A DNA stretch of 44,242 nt, from contig NZ_JADWYU010000147.1 in the NCBI RefSeq assembly GCF_016786325.1, positions 1-44,242 of the forward strand, in the 5' to 3' direction. Position numbers and translations under genes: made by a program. Each line of letters begins with the position of its first letter. Position 1 is the stretch's first letter. Source of the DNA: Frankia nepalensis. GTDB taxonomy: Bacteria; Actinomycetota; Actinomycetes; Frankiales; Frankiaceae. Below the pieces are notes generated by a model. It ran no database searches. It had not been told where the DNA came from and was given only the letters and a program-made list of their open reading frames with translations. Below, piece by piece: positions 9,442 to 25,976 of the stretch.

Positions 9442-12400
9442 ATGGCAACGAGCCAGGATCCGCCAGAGGCGGAGCGGGTGGAGCTACTTCACGAGTCGGA
9501 GCGGGTCCGGATCACTCGGTTGGTGTTCCCGTTCGGAAGCGTGATCAAAAAGGAGCCGCTGGGGCCTGACGCCCAGCGGCGGCTGCGGCATGAGGTCGAG
9601 ACCCTCGAACGGCTGTCCGGTGTCGACGGGATCGTGCAGGTGGCGGCCGGGATGCCGCGGTCGGTGTCAGCCGGGTCGATCCTGCTGGTCGATGTCCATG
9701 GCACCGCCGTGCCCGAGCTGTCCATGCCATTGGAACCGGCCGCGCTCGCCGATCTGGCACGATCGCTCGCCATCGCCGTGGCGGCGATGCATCACCGGGG
9801 CGTGGTGCACCGGGACATCAATCCAGCGAACATCGTGGTCAGTAGGGACGAGGAAGAGCCCTACCTGATCGACTTCGCGCTGGCTACGACCTGCACGGTG
9901 GTCGAGCCAGGGTTCGTCCACCCCAGCGCGATCGTCGGGACGTTGCCGTACCTGGCGCCGGAGCAGACTGGCCGGACCGGCCGTGTGGTCGACCAGCGCG
10001 CCGACCTGTACGCGGTTGGGGCAACGCTCTACGAGCTGGCCACCGGCGCACCGCCGTTCGGGGTGGATGATCCACTGCGGATCATCCACGACCATCTCAC
10101 GCGGGTACCGACACCTCCGGCGACCGTTAATCCAAAGCTGCCAGCCGACCTGTCAGAGATCATCATGCTCCTACTGGCGAAGGAGCCGGACGATCGCTAT
10201 CAGAGCGCCGACGGATTGGCTCGTGATCTTTCTTTGGTGTGTCGGGGTGTCGCCATGGGGCGTCCCGGCGCGCATGATGTTCCGGCGCGGCCGCTGACGC
10301 CGTCCCGGCTTGCGGGGCGAGACAATGAGATCGGCGACCTGGCCGTGGCCTTCACAGAGGCGATGGCGGGCCGCTGCCGCGGGGTCCTCGTGGGCGGCGC
10401 GCCGGGGGTGGGCAAGACGTCGCTCATCAACGAGCTGCGGCCGATCGCGGCCGGCCGCGACGGCTGGTTCGTGTCAGGCAAGTTCGACCAGTATCGCGTT
10501 GACCAGGAGTACGACGCAGTTCGTCAGGCGCTTCGGGCGTTGGGCCGGCTGTTACTCGCCGAGTCGGAGGACGACCTGGCCGAGCTGCGGGACCGGATGC
10601 TCCGCGAACTGGGACCCAACGCCGGGCTGGTAAGCGCCGTTATTCCGGAGCTGGCGGTGCTGCTAAAGGTCCCCCCGGAGCTTGGGGATCCGACGACCGC
10701 GCAGGCGCGGGCCCAGCGTGCCGGATTCGGGATACTGCGCGCGGTCGCCTCCCCAAAACGGCCGGTGGTGTTCTTCGTCGACGACCTGCAATGGGCTGGA
10801 CGGACCCCGCTGGGCTTCGTTGACCTGCTCGTCGCCAGCGAGGACAAAATCGAGGGGCTGCTGCCGGTGGGCGCGTACCGGGAGTGTGACGTCGACGCCA
10901 CCCATCCGCTGGCGCCGATGCTCGCCCGCTGGCGGCGACAGCAGGGGGGTCCTCGTCACCTGCGGTTGGGCAACCTGTCACTGGAAGGTCAGACGGGCAT
11001 GGTGACCGATCTGTTGCGCCTGGCCCCGGAACCCGCCACCGAGCTGGCGCGGCTGATCGCGCCCTCCACCGGAGGGAATCCATACGACACGGTGGAGCTG
11101 CTCAACGCGCTGCGCCACGAGCACGTGCTGGTCCGCGGCGACCGCGGCTGGCGATGGGATATATCAATCTTGCGCGACCGCCTCGAGCACGTGGACGTGA
11201 CCGAACTGCTGGCCGCGCACGTGGCCACGTTGCCATCCGCTACCCGAGAGGTGCTCGCGGTCATGGCGTGCCTGGCGGGCCGGGTGGAACTGGACGTCCT
11301 CGAGGCCGCGACCGGGCTGGCGGTGGGCGAGATCGAGCGGCGGCTCGGCCCCGCGTTCGCGGACGGCCTACTGGTGCTGGAGTCCGACGGCCAGCTCGGC
11401 GTGCGCTTTCACCACGACCGGATACGGGAGTCCGTCCTGGGCGGGCTGCCGGCGCCGGTGCTGTGCGCCAGGCGATTGCGTCTCGCTCGCCGTCTCGCCA
11501 AGCGAGACGAGTTCGTCACCGTCACCGCAGAGCAGTACCTGCCTGTCATCGGCGCCGTGCATGACCCCGCGGAGCGGCAGCTGATCGCAGGGCTCTTCCG
11601 GCGCGCGGCCGACGAGGCGGGAGTGCTCAGCAACTTCCCGCTGATCGAGAGATTCCTGACCGCGGCCGTGACGGTCATCGAGCCGACCGACACCAGCCAG
11701 TTGATCGCGGTGCACATCGGCCGACACGCCGCCTTGTACAGCCTGGGCCGTCTGGAGGAGGCCGACGAGGTCTACGAGATCATCTGCGGGCTGTGTACCC
11801 GCCCGAGGCAGCACACGTCCGCCACCGTGGCACAGGTCAGAAGCCTCACCAACCGAGGCCGCTACGAGGAGGCGCTGCGACTCGGCCTCGGCCACCTGCG
11901 CCAGCTAGGCCTCGCTGTCCCGGACCGGGCCCACCTCGACACGGAGATCGACCGCGGGCTGGAGGCGGTCTATCGGTGGATCGACGCGACCAGCGAAACC
12001 GACGATCTTCGCCGGCCGGGGGGCTCCGACCGATCGACACTTGACGCTTTCCGGGTCGTCGACTCGCTCATCGCCCCGGCGCACTTCGCTGATCGGGCGA
12101 TGATGGCCTGGCTGATCTTGCAGGCGCTTCAGGTGTGGGCACGGCACGGCCCGGACGCCACCCTGCTCGGCCCGGCGGGCTCCGCAGCGTTTGTCGCCGT
12201 CGCTCGTAGGCAGGACTATCGGACCGGACATCGGATCATGCGGCGTCTCGTCGCGGTCGGAGCGGCGCGCGGCTTCGAGCCGGAGATCTGGCAGGCGGAG
12301 TTCCTGTACCTGATCGGGACCGGCCACTGGTTCGACCCGCTTGAGGACAACGTATCCGAGGCACGTCGCACGCTGGAGCATCTCATCCAGAGCGGCAACC

Positions 12401-14328
12401 TGCAGAGCGCGTGCTGGGCACATTACGTTCTGACGACCAACCTGCTGGACTGCGCGCCGTCGCTGGGCGTCTTCGTCGGCCAGCTCGATGCCGCGCTGGC
12501 GTTCGCCACGCGGACCAGCAACGGTCCCGCCGAGGAGGCACTGTGGCCATGGCGCCAGCTGGCCCAGGTGATGCGCGGCGAGCTGGTCAGGTCGGCGGCC
12601 GACGAGGCGGCCGCACTGAGCGTCCTGTCCGCGAACCCACTTGCCGCTGTTCACCTGCATCTCTGCCTGGCCCTGGCCGCGCTGATCTTCGATCAACCAG
12701 CCGAGCTTGCTCGGCATACGGAAGCCGTCCTGCCGTTGTTGCCGGTCATCGAAGCCAGCTACGACGCGGGGAGGGCGCGGCTTCTGCGCGCCATGAAACT
12801 GGCCTGGCAGATCCGCGCCACCGCGCAGCCGGACCAGCGACCGGCGTTGGTGGCCGCGCTGGACGAGCAGGTCGCCTGGCTGGCCGCGCGCGCGGCCGAC
12901 GCGCCGGACAACTTCCTGCACCTGTTGCGCCTGGTGGAAGCGGAACGGGCCTGGGCAGTCGGCGACTTCCTGGAGGCGGAGTACTCGTTTGACGCGGCAC
13001 AATGCGAGGCCTCCGTCCGGGAGCGCCCATGGCACCTGGCGCTGATCCTCGAACGCGCCGCCCAGTTCCACTTCTCGCGCGGCATGGTGGCGGCTGGAAG
13101 CACCCTGCTCGCGGCCGCCCGCCGCCAGTATCTGGACTGGGGCGCGACCGCGAAGGTCAGCCAGCTCGACTGGGCCCATCCGACGCTACGTCCCGATCCC
13201 GCCGGCGAGGGGCCGGCGCAACCACCGGCGGTTCCTGCTGCCCGCCGCTCCACCATCACCACCGGCTCCATCGACCTGCTCGGCATCGTCGCCGCCTCCC
13301 AGGCCCTCAGCTCCGAGACGAGCATCGAGGGCCTACGGACCCGGGTCGCGGGCATCCTCTCGGCGATGACCGGAGCCACCAGCGTCCATCTGCTGCTTCT
13401 CGACGAAGAGCGGCAGGACTGGTTCGTGCCGGGCAGCGACGCAGGCACCGCCTCCCCCACGGAGTCCGGCCGGCGGCGCCTGCTGCCACTCTCGATCATC
13501 CGGTACGCCGAACGGACTCATGAACCACTCGTCATTCCCGACGCCACCCGTGACGACCGGTTCGCGCGCGACCCTTACTGCCTTGACCTGGACCGATGCT
13601 CGGTGCTGGCGATGCCCGTCCTCATCCGGGGCAGGCTGCGCGCGATGCTGCTACTGGAGAACCGGATGATCCGCGGCGCGTTCACCACCGAACGCCTCGA
13701 AGGAATCACGCTCATCGCTGGACAGCTCGCTGTCTCTCTCGACAACGCCCAGCTCTATTCCTCCCTGGAACGCAGGGTTGCCGAACGGACACAGCAGCTC
13801 GCTGCGGCGAACCTGCGGCTCGAACAACTCTCGGTCACCGACCAGCTCACCGGATTGGCCAACCGACGCCGGCTCGACGAGGTCCTCAGCGCCGAATGGC
13901 AACGGGCTATCCGCCAGGGCACACCCATCGCCGTCGCGATGATCGACATCGACCAGTTCAAGCTCTACAACGACCACTTCGGACACACCACCGGCGACCG
14001 TTGCCTCCAACGCGTCGCCGCCTGCCTGGCCGGCAATATTCGCGCAACCGACCTCGTCGCCCGTTTCGGCGGTGAGGAGTTCGCCACCGTGATGCCGGGC
14101 ACCGACTTCGACGCCGCCGCTCGGCTGGCCCGGCGCCTGTGCGCCGCCGTCGCGGAACTCGCCGAACCGCACCCGTTGGCTGCAATCCCCATCGTCACCG
14201 TGAGCGTTGGCTTCAGCGCGATTACCCCCATGCCCGGCGACGACCTGGCCCCCTGCATTGAGCTCGCTGACAGGGCGCTCTACCGGGCTAAGCAGGGTGG
14301 ACGCAACCGAGTGGAATCTGCACAGTAA
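9442..14328 (+). CDS. Ser/Thr kinase-like / AAA ATPase / GAF / GGDEF fusion protein
   Basis: This 1,628-residue signalling protein has four modules. A protein-kinase-like domain (about 20-275) has the catalytic loop HRDINPANIV (123-132), DFA (144-146) in place of DFG, and the activation end YLAPEQTGRTGR. An AAA_16 ATPase (about 289-640) has Walker A GAPGVGKTS (319-327) and Walker B VVFFVDDLQWA. A long helical TPR-like middle (about 640-1260) leads to a GAF domain (about 1275-1420) and a short coiled coil. The GGDEF domain (about 1455-1625) has the active signature GGEEF at 1543-1547. An RxxD inhibitory site (RATD) lies five residues before it. The C-terminus should make cyclic di-GMP with product feedback. 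The kinase-ATPase-GAF layout resembles known large sensor kinases, but a diguanylate cyclase replaces the usual histidine kinase output. No membrane helix is visible. It has no operon partner. Confidence 0.9.
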   Translation: MATSQDPPEAERVELLHESERVRITRLVFPFGSVIKKEPLGPDAQRRLRHEVETLERLSGVDGIVQVAAGMPRSVSAGSILLVDVHGTAVPELSMPLEPAALADLARSLAIAVAAMHHRGVVHRDINPANIVVSRDEEEPYLIDFALATTCTVVEPGFVHPSAIVGTLPYLAPEQTGRTGRVVDQRADLYAVGATLYELATGAPPFGVDDPLRIIHDHLTRVPTPPATVNPKLPADLSEIIMLLLAKEPDDRYQSADGLARDLSLVCRGVAMGRPGAHDVPARPLTPSRLAGRDNEIGDLAVAFTEAMAGRCRGVLVGGAPGVGKTSLINELRPIAAGRDGWFVSGKFDQYRVDQEYDAVRQALRALGRLLLAESEDDLAELRDRMLRELGPNAGLVSAVIPELAVLLKVPPELGDPTTAQARAQRAGFGILRAVASPKRPVVFFVDDLQWAGRTPLGFVDLLVASEDKIEGLLPVGAYRECDVDATHPLAPMLARWRRQQGGPRHLRLGNLSLEGQTGMVTDLLRLAPEPATELARLIAPSTGGNPYDTVELLNALRHEHVLVRGDRGWRWDISILRDRLEHVDVTELLAAHVATLPSATREVLAVMACLAGRVELDVLEAATGLAVGEIERRLGPAFADGLLVLESDGQLGVRFHHDRIRESVLGGLPAPVLCARRLRLARRLAKRDEFVTVTAEQYLPVIGAVHDPAERQLIAGLFRRAADEAGVLSNFPLIERFLTAAVTVIEPTDTSQLIAVHIGRHAALYSLGRLEEADEVYEIICGLCTRPRQHTSATVAQVRSLTNRGRYEEALRLGLGHLRQLGLAVPDRAHLDTEIDRGLEAVYRWIDATSETDDLRRPGGSDRSTLDAFRVVDSLIAPAHFADRAMMAWLILQALQVWARHGPDATLLGPAGSAAFVAVARRQDYRTGHRIMRRLVAVGAARGFEPEIWQAEFLYLIGTGHWFDPLEDNVSEARRTLEHLIQSGNLQSACWAHYVLTTNLLDCAPSLGVFVGQLDAALAFATRTSNGPAEEALWPWRQLAQVMRGELVRSAADEAAALSVLSANPLAAVHLHLCLALAALIFDQPAELARHTEAVLPLLPVIEASYDAGRARLLRAMKLAWQIRATAQPDQRPALVAALDEQVAWLAARAADAPDNFLHLLRLVEAERAWAVGDFLEAEYSFDAAQCEASVRERPWHLALILERAAQFHFSRGMVAAGSTLLAAARRQYLDWGATAKVSQLDWAHPTLRPDPAGEGPAQPPAVPAARRSTITTGSIDLLGIVAASQALSSETSIEGLRTRVAGILSAMTGATSVHLLLLDEERQDWFVPGSDAGTASPTESGRRRLLPLSIIRYAERTHEPLVIPDATRDDRFARDPYCLDLDRCSVLAMPVLIRGRLRAMLLLENRMIRGAFTTERLEGITLIAGQLAVSLDNAQLYSSLERRVAERTQQLAAANLRLEQLSVTDQLTGLANRRRLDEVLSAEWQRAIRQGTPIAVAMIDIDQFKLYNDHFGHTTGDRCLQRVAACLAGNIRATDLVARFGGEEFATVMPGTDFDAAARLARRLCAAVAELAEPHPLAAIPIVTVSVGFSAITPMPGDDLAPCIELADRALYRAKQGGRNRVESAQ

Positions 14329-18329: not shown

Positions 18330-18790
18330 GGCACTGTTGCGTTCGCTGGGGACGGCGGTCAAGCTGGCCGGTCAGGCATGATCGAGTAGTGCGTCGTCGG
18401 CGTGTACGACCTGTGGTCCCGGCCTCGGAGTTTGCCGGGTTCCGCTTCCCACCCGAGGTGATCGTTCTGGCGGTACGGTGGTACCTGCGGTTCGCCCTGT
18501 CCTACCGCGACGTCGAGGAACTACTAGCCGAACGCGGCCTCGAGGTCGACCACGTCACGATCTACAGGTGGTTGCAGCGGTTCACCCCGTCGCTGATCGA
18601 CGCCGCCCGGCCGAGCCGCCACAGCCCGGGCAGCAGGTGGTTCACCGATGAGACGTGAAGGTCGCCGGTCGCTGGACGTACTTGTACCGAGCAATCGACC
18701 AGTTCGGCCAGGTCATCGACGTGCTCGCCTCGGAGAAGCGGGACCTGGCCGCGGCCCGCCATCTGACCAGGCAACCAGCCGCCACCCGCG
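18330..18790 (+). mobile_element. IS6-family insertion sequence, left end and broken transposase
   Basis: The left terminal repeat GGCACTGTTGCGTTCGC (18330-18346) matches the IS6/IS26-type end. The transposase begins at GTG 18389: FRFPPEVIVLAVRWYLRFAL, then RDVEELLAERGLEVDHVTIY, then WFTDET with the first Asp. A loss of about four bases after DET (near 18656) shifts the frame, and it continues in another frame as KVAGRWTYLYRAIDQFGQVI. The match ends near 18790 without the rest of the DDE domain or a right terminal repeat. The element is immobile. Confidence 0.8.
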
Positions 18791-19414
18791 CCCATCCCCG
18801 ACACCGACGGCTGGGACGCCGTCGTCGACGTCAGCTACCGAAGCATCACCGGAAACACCCACCTCCGAGACTGGGAATACATCCCATGCACCGACGCCGG
18901 CAACCTGTCCGCGGCCCCCGCCCAGCCAGCCGCGTCCCGCAACTCGGACTCGGCGCCGTTCTCGCATTCCTGGTACTCCTCGGCGCCGGCTGCGGGGGAA
19001 CGACACCGCGCGACCCCGAGGCGAACACCGCCAACTGGCCAGCCGACATCACGGACCCCCGCCCCCGGCCGCCGACGGCCCTCAACCGGAGTCCACCCGG
19101 ACACACCCCCGGCGACACGCCTGACTCCGCCTCCCGGCACCGAGGCGTGGCTCGCGTCCTGCGCCGTCGACCACGAGTCCGGCCTCCCCACCGCCGTCGT
19201 CGTCGTCACCAACACCACCCAGACCGCTCAGAGCTACACCATCGAAGTCACCTTCACCAGCACCCGGGACAGGGCCGTCACCGGCATATCCTCCGCGCGA
19301 ACAGGACTACTCCAACCCGGCGCCGAAGCCGACAAGCCGAAAATCGGCTGGTCCCGCGACGACATCATCAGCGGCGTCGAGTGCGCGCTCGGAAGGATCG
19401 ACCGGACGGCCTGA
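18767..19414 (+). pseudogene. Frameshifted lipoprotein-like gene
   Basis: Two overlapping frames have coding-like GC bias. One runs from about 18886 (ATG) to 19100 and contains a lipoprotein-type signal, LGAVLAFLVLLGAGCGGTTP. The other is open from 18767 to the TGA at 19412-19414 and ends in a beta-rich domain: WLASCAVDHESGLPTAVVVV, then TYTIEVTF-like and GLLQPGAEADKPKIGW. The natural reading is the lipoprotein signal first and then a shift near 19100 into the second frame. This suggests a small exported protein with an immunoglobulin-like C-terminal domain. The 5' part of the second frame lacks any start codon and abuts the IS6 fragment. Function is unknown. Confidence 0.4.
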
Positions 19415-19771
19415 GAAGAGGTCTGGCGACGCTCGGGCCCGCGGTCACCCGTCCCCTGTCCGATGCCGCAGGCGCAGCTACCCGGCCGGCGGGGCGCGGA
19501 AATCTGGCGCTGGTGCTGCCGCGCCCACGCCAGCAACTCGTCATCGGACGGCCCACCCGGACCAGTCGAGGCCGGTGCCGGCCGGCGCGGCCGGGGAACC
19601 TCCGACGACGAGGGAGAGGTCGCCGCCACCGCCCTCAACCTGATCAGGTTTGGACGCCTGGTGGACCGGCACGCCGCTCGACCGGCCCGGGCCAGCCACC
19701 TCGCAAGACTCGACTTCGGCGTCGCAGCGTCACCGCGTAGAACAACAGAGTCCTCCAAGCGCGCGAGCCGA
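19415..19771. other. No recognisable gene
   Basis: This stretch lies downstream of two convergent frames. Frames cross it on both strands, but I find no family match or good start signal. Confidence 0.45.
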
Positions 19772-22002: not shown

Positions 22003-22422
22003 TCATTCGTCGGCGGCCAGGAGCTGGGCGACCCGGCCGGCCTGCGCCGTGCGCAGCCGGACCTCCACTCGACCGGACCGGGACGGGTTGGTTGTCCCGG
22101 CGTCATAGGCGAAGCACACTCGGCCCGGCCGGTCGACCACCACCTCGATCGTGGCGCGGATCGGATGGGCCAGCGGCACGTCGATGTGTTTGAACCGGCC
22201 GGCCCAGACCACCAGACGTCCGGCCGTGATCGCGATAGCGCCGGAGGCGGCCTCCTTGCTCCACGACGACCACTCGCCCGGTGCCCGGTAACGGCGGCGT
22301 GTGACCGACCCGGTCAATTCCTCCTCCAGCAGGACCAGCCCTTCGGCGGCGAGTTCGGCGCGCAGTCGCTCGGGTAGCCGGCCCGAGCCAATGCCAAGAA
22401 GCATGCGCAGCAACGGGTTCAC
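22003..22422 (-). CDS. Small hypothetical protein, possibly PH-like
   Basis: This 139-residue soluble protein starts at GTG 22422. The first 40 residues are helical and amphipathic (LPERLRAELAAEGLVLLEEE). The rest is beta-rich: AIAITAGRLVVWAGRFKHID, then IEVVVDRPGRVCFAYDAGTT, ending in VEVRLRTAQAGRVAQLLA. The alternation of short strands with a last helix resembles a bacterial PH-like domain, but I cannot name a family. It lies upstream of the PD40 kinase on the same strand and could be co-transcribed. Confidence 0.6.
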   Translation of the reverse strand: MNPLLRMLLGIGSGRLPERLRAELAAEGLVLLEEELTGSVTRRRYRAPGEWSSWSKEAASGAIAITAGRLVVWAGRFKHIDVPLAHPIRATIEVVVDRPGRVCFAYDAGTTNPSRSGRVEVRLRTAQAGRVAQLLAADE

Positions 22423-22839
22423 GGCCGCAGGTTAGCCGCGCGGGTCAACCACCGACACAGGCCGCGTCTGCTGCTGCCTCATAGACGATCCGGCGCTCCG
22501 GAGCGATCCGCGGCCGCGGCACGGCGGCGGTCAGCCCACGCGTGGACGCATCCGTGCCGACCACGAGGTTCCGCCTGTCACCCGTCGGAGCACCGCGGCC
22601 GCGGCTCGGCGCCCTTTCGGCCCCGGCCGCGGTCCCGGGAGCCCGGTGCCTACGTCTCGCGCGATTCTCACCATCAGGGCCTTGCCGCCTTGGCATGCGC
22701 GTCGTTGGCGGACATGAAGGGGCGCCTTCCAGGGTCGCACGGGAGACCATCCCATGGTCTCTGTTCGTAGCTGGAGGATCGGCTGGACATCCGGCGAGGC
22801 CGTCCGCCGAGACCTACTCATCAAGCCCCCGGAAACACC
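22423..22839. other. No recognisable gene
   Basis: Frames are open on both strands, but none shows family motifs or a credible start. Third-position bias is inconsistent. Confidence 0.5.
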
Positions 22840-22847
22840 GTCTACGG
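22840..22847. repeat. Target-site duplication, left copy (GTCTACGG)
   Basis: The octamer directly before the left inverted repeat of the 214-bp element is identical to the octamer after the right repeat. Confidence 0.85.
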
Positions 22848-23061
22848 GGCTCTGGCTCGAATTCGGTGGTGACCGTCTGTTAGCAGGCGCAGTCGACGCG
22901 GCAGGCGGCGAACACGACCGAACCAGATGCCTGGTGATCGTTTCCGAGTCCCTCGACCGCCACGGCGACATCTCCAAACGAGCCGATATCCGACATACGC
23001 GGCACGCACGGGGCTGCGGTGTGCGGTGACTCCGCGTTACCACCGAATTTGAGCCAGAGCC
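22848..23061. mobile_element. 214-bp MITE-like element with 8-bp target duplication
   Basis: The left end GGCTCTGGCTCGAATTCGG (continuing TGGTGAC) and the reverse complement of the right end agree at 24 of the first 26 positions. The two differences are G/A at positions 12 and 24. Both flanks carry the same octamer GTCTACGG (22840-22847 and 23062-23069), a perfect target-site duplication. Element length is 214 bp, too short for a transposase. Ends beginning GGCTCT and 8-bp duplications are typical of the ISL3 family, so this is probably a non-autonomous derivative mobilised by an ISL3-type enzyme elsewhere. The interior has no recognised coding content. Confidence 0.88.
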
Positions 23062-23069
23062 GTCTACGG
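23062..23069. repeat. Target-site duplication, right copy (GTCTACGG)
   Basis: The octamer directly after the right inverted repeat is identical to the left copy. Removing the element and one copy restores a continuous flanking sequence. Confidence 0.85.
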
Positions 23070-23129: not shown

Positions 23130-23445
23130 TCAGCGCGCGAAGTTGAGACGAAGGCCTGGCCAGGGCCACTGGAGGGAGTAAAGAACTCCCCGTCCGGCCG
23201 AGCAGACGAACGCGGTGTCGCCGTCCAGGCCGCCGAAGCAGATGGCCGCCGAAGCAGATGTTGGTGACATACGTGTCGGGCCCTGGCGTCACGAACTCCC
23301 GCGGCACCTGTCCGTCCGGACTGATCGCGGTTATCCCCGACCTCCGCGGGTTCGCGATGCACACGTTGCCGGCTCCGTCGACCGCCAGGCCGGGGCGCTC
23401 GGACGGTATGTACCATTTCGCTGCCTGGTCCTGGCGGTCAACGAC
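23130..23445 (-). pseudogene. SMP-30/gluconolactonase-like protein, C-terminal remnant
   Basis: On the minus strand the sequence reads KWYIPSERPGLAVDGAGNVC, then IANPRRSGITAISPDGQVPR, then PDTYVTNICFGG. These are typical blades of SMP-30/gluconolactonase propellers. A 16-bp tandem duplication then shifts the frame. Skipping one copy restores GLDGDTAFVCSAGRGVLYSL, the family's closing WPWPGL-LNFAR and a TGA at 23130-23132. About 110 C-terminal codons remain. The 5' two thirds are missing, replaced by the start of the helicase-like gene on the other strand. Confidence 0.78.
23228..23259. repeat. 16-bp perfect tandem duplication
   Basis: GGCCGCCGAAGCAGAT occurs twice in direct succession (23228-23243 and 23244-23259). 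It lies inside the SMP-30 remnant and adds 16 bases, which breaks the reading frame. A slippage or short-homology duplication is the likely cause. Confidence 0.9.
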
Positions 23446-23474
23446 GGTTGAACGGCGGCGAAAGGGGATGCGGG

Positions 23475-25976
23475 GTGGAGCCGCTGGCGGCGTCCGATTC
23501 GCTGGTCGAGGGCGGCTGGCGGGAGCACCTCGACTGGATCCCCGAGGGCCTCACGCCCGACGCCCACCAGGCGGTCGCGTTCGAGCGTCTCTCGACGAAG
23601 TACGAACCGGCGTGCCCGACCGTGCTCATCACCGGCCCGGGCACGACCGACGCGTTCCTCGTCCCGGTCCTCGACCACTGCCGGCTCGCGAGCACCGCCG
23701 GCCAGCCGGGTGTGAAGGCGCTGCTGCTCTGCCCGACGAGCACCCAGGCGACCGGCCAGGCGGGCCGCCTCGACGGATTCCTCCAAGGCCAGGCGCTGGC
23801 CTCCGTCACCGCCGGTCTCTACCTCGGCGGTACCTCGGCGGAGAACTACCGCCGGGTGCTGACGGACCACGCCGCGATTCGCCGCGCCGTCCCTGACGTC
23901 CTGATCACGACCTGCGCGATACTCGACCGGCTGCTGCAGCGCCCCGAGGACGTCCCGCTGTGGCAGTCGAAGAGCCTTGCCTACGCCGTCCTGAACGAGA
24001 TCCACCTCGAGGACGGCGCGCGACGCGCCGACATCGCGATGCTGCTGCGACGCCTCGGTGCCGTCACCGCCGCTGCCCGACCCGGCCGACCGCTGGGGCT
24101 GGTGTGCCCGGTGGTGACGTCGGCGGCATTCGGCGCGGGGACGTTCGGCGCGGGCACGGTCGATGAGGACGCGGCGAACGCGATCCGCGCCCTCGCCGAG
24201 GAGATCTTCGGCGTCCCGTTCGAGCCGGGCGCCGTCGTCGGCGAGAACCGGCTGGCACCGGACGAGGTGCCCGCCGGGCGCGACTCGTCGCTGCCCGGTC
24301 CGGACCCGGTGCCACGTGCCGCGTTCCCGGTCGACCGCGGGAGCACCCCGCCCGCGACGTTCCTGTCGGCGATCGACATCCTGCGCCGCCAGTACGTCGC
24401 GCACCTGGTCGACCTCGCCGCCCGAGGTCGGCTGGCGGGCGCGCGCCCACTGCCCCGCCTCGCCGGGGCGCTGTTCGGAACGGATGGCTGGCTCGCCGAG
24501 TTCACCGCCGCGGCCCTCACGGCCGGGGCGGGCAAGGTGGAGCGGTTCCTCGCCCTGTTCGCGGCCGTCGGGGACGACGGCGGCGAGCTCCACGCCGAAG
24601 GCGGTTCGTTCGTCGGCGAGGACGCGGCCACCGAGCTGCGCGCCTACGCCGTCGCCGGGCTGGCCGAGGCCGTCGCCGCCGCGGAACAGGCGTGGGAGGC
24701 ACGGCCAGGCGGCGACCCCGCCCGCGCGGCGGCCCACGCGACGCTTGTCGACCTGGGCCTGCTGCCGAACTACGCCCTGCCAGGCGCGGCCCTGTCAGCC
24801 GAGTCCCTGTCCGGCGAGGAAGCGACGGCAGCCGCGACGCCCACCGTCGGCGGGGGCTCCGCCCCCACCGACGGGCGCTCGCCGCGCGGCGCGTTCGAGG
24901 GCGATCCGCGGACGCGTCTCCTCGACGGCCTGCGCGCCTGGGTTGCCCGCGCCGACACCCCCGGCACGGTGACCATGGAGGCCGACCTCCCCGACGGGAC
25001 GCGGGTCGCCGAGCTGCGCCTGGCTGGCCCGGCCAGGAGCGTCACCCACTGGCGGATGCGGCTGAGGCCCAGCGTGGCCGCCAGCCGGGCGGGTGTGCAG
25101 CTCACCCGCCTCGGCGGGCCGCCGGTCCAGGTCGTCGTCTACCTGGACGGCTTCGGCCATGACGCACGCGCCGGCCGCCACCAGCTCGCGGACGACGCGG
25201 ACAGGCACAGCGCGCTGCGCGCCCGTGGGGTGTGGGTCTACCAGCTCACCTGGAACGACGTCGAGGAGTGGCGCGCCAGGGCGGCGGGTGTGCCGGCGCC
25301 GCCCCGGCCGCCCTACCAGGGCCCGGCCCAGGAGCAGGCGCAGGTGTACTACCGCGCGGTGACGAGCCCGCCGCGGCCGGCCGACGAGCTGGACCGGCTC
25401 GTCTGGGTCAACCCCGTCGACCAGCTGCTCGCCTTCCTCGCCGACCCCGACCCGAGCCTGTGGCGGGTGCGCGCCCAGGCCGCGCTCGGCGGGCTGCTGC
25501 GGACCCCCGGCGTCGAGCGGGTCCTCGCCGCCGACGGCAGCGGAGCCGCCGCCGCCATCGGCGCGAGTCTGCGTGGCGCGCCGCTGCCCGCCGGAGCCGG
25601 GAAGATCAACGTCATCCGGGCGCGGGACGACGCCGGCTGCCCCGTCACCCTCGTCGTCGACGACCGGGCGGGGCTGGCCGCCCGGGTGTTCTCCGCGTTC
25701 GTCCTCGTCGACGACGGCCCCGAGGCGATCGGCACCGGGTCGGGCTCGGGGCCGGGTGCCGTCGGGGTCGGCCCGGGCACCGCCGACGAGGCGTCGACCC
25801 GCGAGCGGCGCCGGGCCTCCTGGCTGGCCTGGGCGAACCTGATCCAGTTCCTCGCTGACGGCGCCGGCGACGCCGTGGCGCTCACCGTCACCGGCCTCGA
25901 CGGCTTCGACCCGACGCTGCTCGCCGCGGCCGGTCGGCGTCCCGGCCGCGCCGCGGAACCGGCGGACACGCGCTAG
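23475..25976 (+). CDS. Degenerate DEAD/DEAH helicase-like protein with Vsr/PD-(D/E)XK-like C-terminal region
   Basis: From the GTG at 23475 (AAAGGGG seven bases upstream) this is an 833-residue protein; a TTG at 23448 would add nine. The N-terminal half follows the DEAD/DEAH helicase fold: a start like EPLAASDSLV, the motif I region, PGVKALLLCPTS (motif Ia), PDVLITTCAILDRLLQRP (Ib) and a motif II region followed by RRADIAMLLRRL. The ATPase residues are gone: TGTGSGKT is TGPGTTDA (Lys replaced by Asp59) and DEAH is NEIH (174-177). The second RecA domain with motif VI is not apparent. The C-terminal part contains VVVYLDGFGHDA (about 552-563), then LADDADRHSALRARGVWVYQ and LTWNDVEEW, resembling the Vsr/PD-(D/E)XK-like end of DUF1998-type helicases. 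Its function is unknown; defence is an inference from related families. Confidence 0.68.
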   Translation: MEPLAASDSLVEGGWREHLDWIPEGLTPDAHQAVAFERLSTKYEPACPTVLITGPGTTDAFLVPVLDHCRLASTAGQPGVKALLLCPTSTQATGQAGRLDGFLQGQALASVTAGLYLGGTSAENYRRVLTDHAAIRRAVPDVLITTCAILDRLLQRPEDVPLWQSKSLAYAVLNEIHLEDGARRADIAMLLRRLGAVTAAARPGRPLGLVCPVVTSAAFGAGTFGAGTVDEDAANAIRALAEEIFGVPFEPGAVVGENRLAPDEVPAGRDSSLPGPDPVPRAAFPVDRGSTPPATFLSAIDILRRQYVAHLVDLAARGRLAGARPLPRLAGALFGTDGWLAEFTAAALTAGAGKVERFLALFAAVGDDGGELHAEGGSFVGEDAATELRAYAVAGLAEAVAAAEQAWEARPGGDPARAAAHATLVDLGLLPNYALPGAALSAESLSGEEATAAATPTVGGGSAPTDGRSPRGAFEGDPRTRLLDGLRAWVARADTPGTVTMEADLPDGTRVAELRLAGPARSVTHWRMRLRPSVAASRAGVQLTRLGGPPVQVVVYLDGFGHDARAGRHQLADDADRHSALRARGVWVYQLTWNDVEEWRARAAGVPAPPRPPYQGPAQEQAQVYYRAVTSPPRPADELDRLVWVNPVDQLLAFLADPDPSLWRVRAQAALGGLLRTPGVERVLAADGSGAAAAIGASLRGAPLPAGAGKINVIRARDDAGCPVTLVVDDRAGLAARVFSAFVLVDDGPEAIGTGSGSGPGAVGVGPGTADEASTRERRRASWLAWANLIQFLADGAGDAVALTVTGLDGFDPTLLAAAGRRPGRAAEPADTR

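Follow-up and report, generated by a model that had tools for sequence, protein, structure and literature searches.

ARMADA Type II is a defence system of four genes, in which ArmA is BrxHII-like, ArmB is PglX-like, ArmC is YprA-like and ArmD is GajB-like with a RelE part (PMC12458937, Bell et al. 2025 preprint). ARMADA YprA homologues are predicted to end in an active Vsr-type nuclease, inactivated nuclease domains are known across the YprA defence family, and disruption of Walker A (K110A) or Walker B (D234N) in Escherichia coli ArmC abolished defence (PMC12458937). Here we describe a predicted gene of Frankia nepalensis, an open reading frame (ORF) at 23475–25976 of contig NZ_JADWYU010000147.1 (assembly GCF_016786325.1; the whole 44,242-nucleotide stretch analysed is the window), which alignment shows to derive from armC, the gene for the YprA-like helicase–nuclease of ARMADA Type II, and whose predicted product is shown by the same comparison to have lost both its ATP-use and its DNA-cutting residues. 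We suggest, with moderate confidence, that over much of its history this gene was retained as a pseudoenzyme rather than surviving by chance as a pseudogene. The original prediction had called it a plausible undescribed defence or DNA-processing protein; by homology it is not undescribed in kind, being a dead paralogue of the described defence protein ArmC.

The likeness to ArmC lies in collinear homology over the first RecA-like domain (RecA1), a helical block that follows the second such domain (RecA2) in relatives, and the Vsr-type tail, and the nearest full-length homologues stand in ArmA–ArmB–ArmC–ArmD-like operons, of which the same genome carries one; unlike ArmC, the window protein has no RecA2, Zn-binding region, intact Walker A or B, catalytic nuclease residues or operon. 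A related DEAD/DEAH N-terminal domain is held in common with DruE of Druantia, and the best PADLOC model for the protein is DruE3 (E 1.4e-19). PMC13192584 and PMC12458937 give DruE III PLD-type nuclease domains, whereas the window tail is Vsr-like and the intact relative in its own genome lies among ARMADA-type genes, and on these two grounds the Druantia label was rejected. No PLD domain was recognized by Pfam, either at E up to 10 in the window ORF or at E up to 1 in L026, an intact relative, and DruH was not among the matches shown in the PADLOC neighbour scans, which included no DruH-specific search. The RecA1 fold is shared with the DUF1998 helicase MrfA (YprA). MrfA has two RecA domains and a Zn domain, unlike the window protein, and to our knowledge no fused Vsr tail has been described for it (PMC12458937, section 8). 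A precedent for a Vsr-like fold that binds without cleaving may be seen in the mitochondrial RNA-binding protein FASTKD4, whose Vsr-like cavity is reported without nuclease activity, and compared with Vsr and I-Bth0305I, in PMC11879112; the structural match is weak and the comparison is an analogy only.

Descent from armC is seen most directly within the same genome (G000, 398 contigs), where pieces of the protein match, collinearly, a 2,350-residue open frame on contig C353: by BLASTP, window residues 12–287, 292–452 and 462–819 correspond to residues 76–348, 1166–1392 and 1812–2175 of that frame. The best-matching pieces of a copy in another genome of the genus (contig C51 of G005, hereafter L029) reach 63% and 65% identity, and this copy is closer to the window protein than is the copy of its own genome. 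Strong similarity to relatives at the DNA level runs from 23507–23514 to 25932–25956, depending on the relative. Pfam recognizes DEAD, Helicase_C and MZB domains in the C353 homologue and likewise in L026, and DEAD alone (E 1.5e-8) in the 833-residue window protein, so that neither the second RecA domain nor the MZB/DUF1998 Zn-binding region of a functional ArmC is found here; full-length ArmC relatives have about 2,200–2,430 residues.

The C353 operon is open and encodes, in order, a Ser/Thr kinase, an SNF2/DrmD-BrxHII-like helicase, a type IIG/PglX-like methyltransferase, the YprA-like helicase and a UvrD/GajB-like helicase. The kinase aside, this agrees with ARMADA Type II in both the genes present and their order (ArmA–ArmB–ArmC–ArmD), with the RelE-like part of ArmD read from a weak, sub-threshold ParE_like match at the N-terminus of the UvrD/GajB-like helicase. 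In each of the two ARMADA II operons tested, a Ser/Thr kinase lies directly upstream of ArmA (L073:10199–11470, minus strand, on G000:C353; L071:6920–8269, plus strand, on G005:C51), and a 435-residue ORF occupies its position at G005:C22 (L075:9331–10635); the kinase is outside the published four-gene set and may represent a fifth, lineage-specific component. Within the genome, ArmB matches are confined to C353 and, distantly, C354. The latter contig carries a second, divergent large DEAD helicase (a 1,799-residue frame, L027:6036–11432; open frame at C354:45756–46217), near which a 1,850-residue frame matches ArmB at 38%, and the two probably belong to another defence system of the same genome.

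The losses that separate the window gene from its relatives were mapped by frame-blind DNA alignment with L029 and L026 (Table 1). The original prediction had found RecA2 "not visible"; it is indeed absent, having been deleted outright within 2,538 bases (846 codons) missing at about 24338/24339. Besides the large losses listed in the table, comparison with L029 gives a 6-nucleotide loss that removes the Gly-Lys of Walker A, losses of 18, 54, 24 and 99 nucleotides in the middle helical block, losses of 21 and 9 nucleotides and of the C-terminal end beyond the linker, and insertions of 15 and 3 nucleotides. In the well-aligned parts every gap of more than 2 bases is a multiple of three. Two patches of 1–2-nucleotide gap clusters, at about 25022–25042 (net 0) and 25531–25539 (net 3), could reflect noise in the alignment or compensated shifts.

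Every helicase motif that is still present has lost residues, and homologues carry intact GKT and DEFH at the equivalent positions. In motif I the change is a two-residue deletion (TGTGSGKTEAF to TGPGT--TDAF), in which Asp59 aligns with the Glu that follows GKT; it does not, as the original prediction held, replace the Lys. The same prediction was right to read NEIH in place of a DEAH-type motif, for which relatives have DEFH. The predicted protein accordingly has neither the GKT of Walker A nor the DExH of Walker B that a functional ArmC keeps intact: set beside the E. coli ArmC mutants, it has no Lys at all and has Asn at the Walker B Asp, the equivalence to D234 following from motif position. 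The expected nuclease-like tail is there, with homology to the Vsr/PD-(D/E)XK-type nuclease of the family, and its catalytic residues, as judged from Vsr/PD-(D/E)XK nucleases, are not kept: besides the Asp and His listed in Table 1, the motif YLDGxxYH (YLDGFRYH) reads YLDGFGHD and the second Glu of ESELE is Arg. With these residues lost the tail is expected not to cut.

Whether the remainder of the protein is constrained was read from 724 of the 833 codons, those in trusted blocks for which all seven sequences have a codon, using six relatives picked from the full-length set for closeness before any counting. On the window branch the ratio of non-synonymous to synonymous rates (dN/dS, omega) was 0.178, compared with 0.099 elsewhere; omega of 1 was rejected (twice the log-likelihood difference, 2dlnL, 87.6), as was equality with the other branches (11.3), and three topologies gave 0.178–0.182. 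This average conceals two classes of site. At 110 motif codons omega was 0.687 against a background of 0.030 (2dlnL 40 versus background and 0.6 versus omega of 1), and at the other 614 codons it was 0.134 against 0.112 (2dlnL 0.9, that is, no difference; omega of 1 rejected, 94). The SF2 windows alone, which follow textbook motifs, gave 0.351 against 0.010, with 0.137 against 0.126 for the remainder of that block. A single pseudogene age for both classes was rejected (2dlnL 53.5 with the motif windows), separate fits giving a neutral fraction of the branch of 0.27 at motif sites and 0.008 at other sites. The rejection was smaller with SF2 windows alone (17.1) and with splits by conservation (12.2 at a 95% cut, 10.1 at 80%), which were drawn, with the window sequence unused, from 77 relatives (80 listed loci minus three with ORFs under 2,000 residues).

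Counts of changed residues agree. The window protein has changed 80 of 344 sites that are invariant in the six relatives, where control taxa changed 4–12 of 348–356 each, and the changes fall on 44 of 87 such sites in the motif windows and 36 of 257 elsewhere. The motif excess holds after stratification by amino acid (odds ratio 4.2, p 6e-8), exceeds the 22.7 motif changes expected from codon mutability, and is seldom reproduced by circular shifts of the windows (p 0.0014; 0.007 for SF2 windows alone). The 36 changes at invariant non-motif sites are less severe than neutral change would be (P 0.0035), and for the motif changes P is 0.07. Catalytic sites were, with the caveats given below, released while other sites stayed under purifying selection, and the proposal of a dead helicase scaffold with a nuclease-like tail, selected as a non-ATPase, is supported by a branch omega that is not near 1 and a non-motif omega that does not differ from background.

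We consider that near-free motif codons, a constrained remainder and the poor fit of a shared age together favour a retained pseudoenzyme over simple decay. An ordinary armC pseudogene, left with an open frame by chance because stops are rare in a genome so rich in GC, is in our judgement the less probable account. In its favour, catalytic motifs are gone, deletions are large and the branch omega is raised. The original prediction had coupled two signs of a decaying ordinary helicase, of which one, homologues with intact GKT and DEAH-type motifs (here DEFH), is found and the other, dN/dS near 1, is not. Decay is further opposed by non-motif codons as constrained as those of intact homologues, by rejection of the shared age under all four site splits, and by large losses that keep the frame against L029 together with a family-like start.

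Several observations weigh against retention. Against L026 the same losses are split further, and the pieces are not all multiples of three; out-of-frame aligned DNA amounts to 111 of 2,476 nucleotides with L029 and 137 of 2,422 with L026, compared with 124 of 6,914 for the intact pair L026–L029; by their listed coordinates the patches lie mostly in the linker and at deletion edges. The nuclease windows were drawn once the changed sites had already been seen. The idea that more deeply conserved sites are spared failed overall, since the changed fraction shows no fall with deep conservation (28 of the 97 sites conserved at 99% or more had changed, and 52 of the 247 conserved less), as expected of a loss of constraint, and deeply conserved non-motif sites are relaxed too (omega 0.066 versus 0.005). 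With L029 as the foreground, omega was 0.002 at motifs and 0.064 elsewhere, a control of low power at the motifs, where omega of 1 was not rejected (2dlnL 1.5). The absence of stops is suggestive at most, since simulation expects 2.1–5.6 and puts the probability of none at 0.003–0.11 depending on the mutation spectrum, and the argument from no stops to selection was set aside as not decisive. A sigma-70-type promoter scan for the ORF found none, and the gene is an orphan adjoining truncated relics, one of them frameshifted, without operon partners. Finally, among sets of one genome per species, no second abridged form was found in 8 genus genomes (every candidate scored), 35 family genomes gave fragments only and 393 class genomes (two best places scored in each) gave none that was confirmed. 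The constraint may have been long-lasting and have recently ended.

Two further accounts fare worse. A captured armC piece, carried or left by a mobile element and poisoning the ARMADA complex as a dominant negative for the benefit of that element, would accord with the closer match to the copy of the other genome, with the transposase-type ORFs and repeats nearby and with the frequent carriage of ARMADA by satellite phage-like elements (PMC12458937); we think it improbable, given that Pfam recognized no phage or plasmid genes among the 20 other window ORFs, that viral contigs held no close match and that none of 29 matching plasmid records covers 80% of the query. The view that helicase or nuclease activity persists despite the unusual motifs draws on the good confidence with which the RecA1 and Vsr-like folds are predicted, and was rejected as very improbable on its residues, the Walker A Lys being deleted, the Walker B Asp replaced by Asn, RecA2 absent and the nuclease Asp and His lost, when K110A or D234N sufficed to abolish defence by E. 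coli ArmC (PMC12458937).

The comparisons show an armC descendant that left or lost its operon, shrank through several frame-keeping deletions, and lost residues from all retained helicase motifs and from the nuclease active site. Under retention as a pseudoenzyme, what was kept would be a scaffold formed by RecA1, together with a helical linker and a dead fold of the Vsr-like kind, predicted to fold and presumed to bind a partner. The most likely action of the reduced protein would be to damp or tune the intact ARMADA complex that is encoded elsewhere in the genome, by binding its subunits or DNA intermediates. That it acts as a dominant-negative or regulatory paralogue of the same-genome ARMADA we propose only tentatively. 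More doubtful still is the wider idea of an immune brake made from an effector, in which a compact non-enzymatic paralogue would control the intact ARMADA of the cell or serve as a decoy for anti-ARMADA phage proteins.

AlphaFold2 models the whole protein with a mean predicted local distance difference test score (pLDDT) of 80.7 and a predicted template modelling score (pTM) of 0.63, and residues 466–833 with a pLDDT of 87.1 and a pTM of 0.88; having been built with relatives in the alignment, the models show the fold of the family and not the folding of this copy. The structural check suggested by the original prediction succeeded for RecA1, which matches MrfA, and only weakly for the tail, whose top VIA match, the I-Bth0305I catalytic domain (Z 6.2, root-mean-square deviation (rmsd) 3.2, 95 aligned), and the next, FASTKD4 (Z 5.3), lie below Z 8, where the tool warns of common arrangements. 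Foldseek gave no match to the tail at E 0.001 or below, and no Vsr endonuclease entry was among the 50 VIA matches listed. Because these Z values are weak, the Vsr label draws mainly on family homology (that is, residue-by-residue alignment with the tail of relatives) and on the published assignment.

Table 1. Features of the abridged ArmC-like gene, in window positions.
Feature	Positions	Strand	Evidence
ORF of the abridged, predicted dead ArmC-like protein	23475–25976	+	GTG start, 833 residues plus stop
Shine–Dalgarno-like GAAAGGGG ahead of GTG	23460–23467	+	Weak, judged by eye
First 10 codons, like family start (M/V)RPTxAAxxL	23475–23504	+	Start-site scoring
In-frame loss of about 42 codons near N-terminus	23505–23512	+	Two gaps close together, of 60 and 66 nucleotides, versus L029
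RecA1 (DEAD) domain, best fold match MrfA	23517–24242	+	Pfam, AlphaFold2; VIA Z 22.2, rmsd 3.6, 273 aligned
Degenerate motif I, TGPGT--TDA versus TGTGSGKTEA (Gly-Lys deleted)	23619–23654	+	Alignment
Degenerate motif Ia, LLCPTSTQATGQ versus LLYPMNALATDQ	23724–23759	+	Alignment
Degenerate motif Ib, ITTCAILDR versus ITNYKMLDQ	23904–23930	+	Alignment
Degenerate motif II, LNEIH versus LDEFH (Walker B Asp to Asn)	23985–24017	+	Alignment
Degenerate motif III, TSAAFG versus TSATLG	24108–24134	+	Alignment
Junction of 2,538-nucleotide (846-codon) in-frame loss of inserted domains and all of RecA2	24338–24346	+	L029 alignment, gap at about 24338/24339
Retained middle helical block, after RecA2 in relatives	24351–24752	+	BLASTP, alignment, model
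Poorly alignable linker, net 1,260-nucleotide (420-codon) loss removing Zn-binding MZB region	24791–24913	+	Alignment; MZB in L026, absent here
Vsr-like (PD-(D/E)XK-type) nuclease fold, catalytically degenerate	24906–25283	+	Alignment, AlphaFold2; VIA weak
Nuclease Asp lost, TRPD to SRAG, residue 540	25092–25094	+	Alignment
YLDGFGHDARAGRHQ versus YLDGFRYHATAEHNR, conserved His is Asp563 here	25140–25184	+	Alignment
Second alpha/beta C-terminal region, retained; about the last 150–170 residues of relatives missing beyond	25284–25937	+	Alignment, model

The open frame of 833 codons with a GTG start and the strong GC bias that had been claimed for it were both confirmed, GC content by codon position being of coding type (0.79/0.58/0.93, in the frame measured from a TTG at 23448). 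In a start-site scoring of 6,550 sites, a set that includes the ORF's own start and one true family start, the score of the 23475 ORF was reached by only two, itself and the true ArmC start on L073. Substitutions on the branch run GC-ward: among columns fixed in five relatives (23475–25973), A at codon position 1 changed in 35%, compared with about 8% for G or C.

The class-wide scan, at 1e-25, gave a match in 42 of the 393 genomes, counting the own genome; the open frames shorter than 2,000 residues were the window ORF itself, one of 1,057 residues running from a contig start (G018:C57) and one of 200 residues (G322:C96); further short frames of 383 (G018:C388) and 193 residues (G013:C192) are N-terminal matches at only 35–37% identity. 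Direct scans of genome contigs and viral contigs for close relatives, with the window protein as query, gave no match, and a scan of genome contigs with an alignment of full-length relatives gave at least 80 loci. At one of the loci (L153, Streptomyces curacoi) the armC-like open frame has just 1,417 residues though the contig continues, and it may be another broken or shortened copy. A literature search on dead or in-frame-deleted phage-defence helicases gave nothing relevant, as judged from titles and the openings of abstracts, and the words 'truncated' and 'Frankia' are absent from the searched text of PMC12458937.

The neighbourhood is decaying, yet the gene at 23475–25976 is unbroken. A fragment upstream at 23133–23391 (minus strand), ending 83 base pairs (bp) before the ORF start, is frameshifted and matches the last 81 residues of a 276–416-residue frame in three relatives; another, at 22012–22425, matches the end of a 324-residue frame over 138 residues. 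Between them lies a 215-bp repeat (about 22847–23062), found at 98–100% on four other contigs of the same genome and at 88% on a fifth, which is possibly an insertion sequence (IS) end or a non-autonomous element. Downstream there is an intact aldo/keto reductase on the opposite strand. The original description of an IS-rich island is only loosely right, the window holding two transposase-type ORFs (59–958 and 18655–19737) and repeat fragments. Pfam matched 15 of the 20 other window ORFs, mainly as signalling or metabolic proteins, and PADLOC, run on the nine surrounding ORFs, matched a Ser/Thr kinase only, through kinase models; no ArmA, ArmB or ArmD was found in either set, and the survey for neighbouring methylases or nucleases that the original prediction had recommended recognized no partner beside the gene. 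One window ORF (9442–14328, plus strand) encodes a 1,628-residue protein in which protein kinase, AAA_16 ATPase, GAF and GGDEF (diguanylate cyclase) domains are joined.

In summary, one shortened protein combines a helicase and a nuclease that both appear dead, yet constraint is still seen in its remaining codons, and the comparison of motif with non-motif omega on the branch, together with the shared-age model, provides a worked test of pseudoenzyme against pseudogene from a single sequence. If expressed, the protein would represent a naturally occurring ArmC of dominant-negative or regulatory type, and may offer a handle on the assembly of ARMADA.

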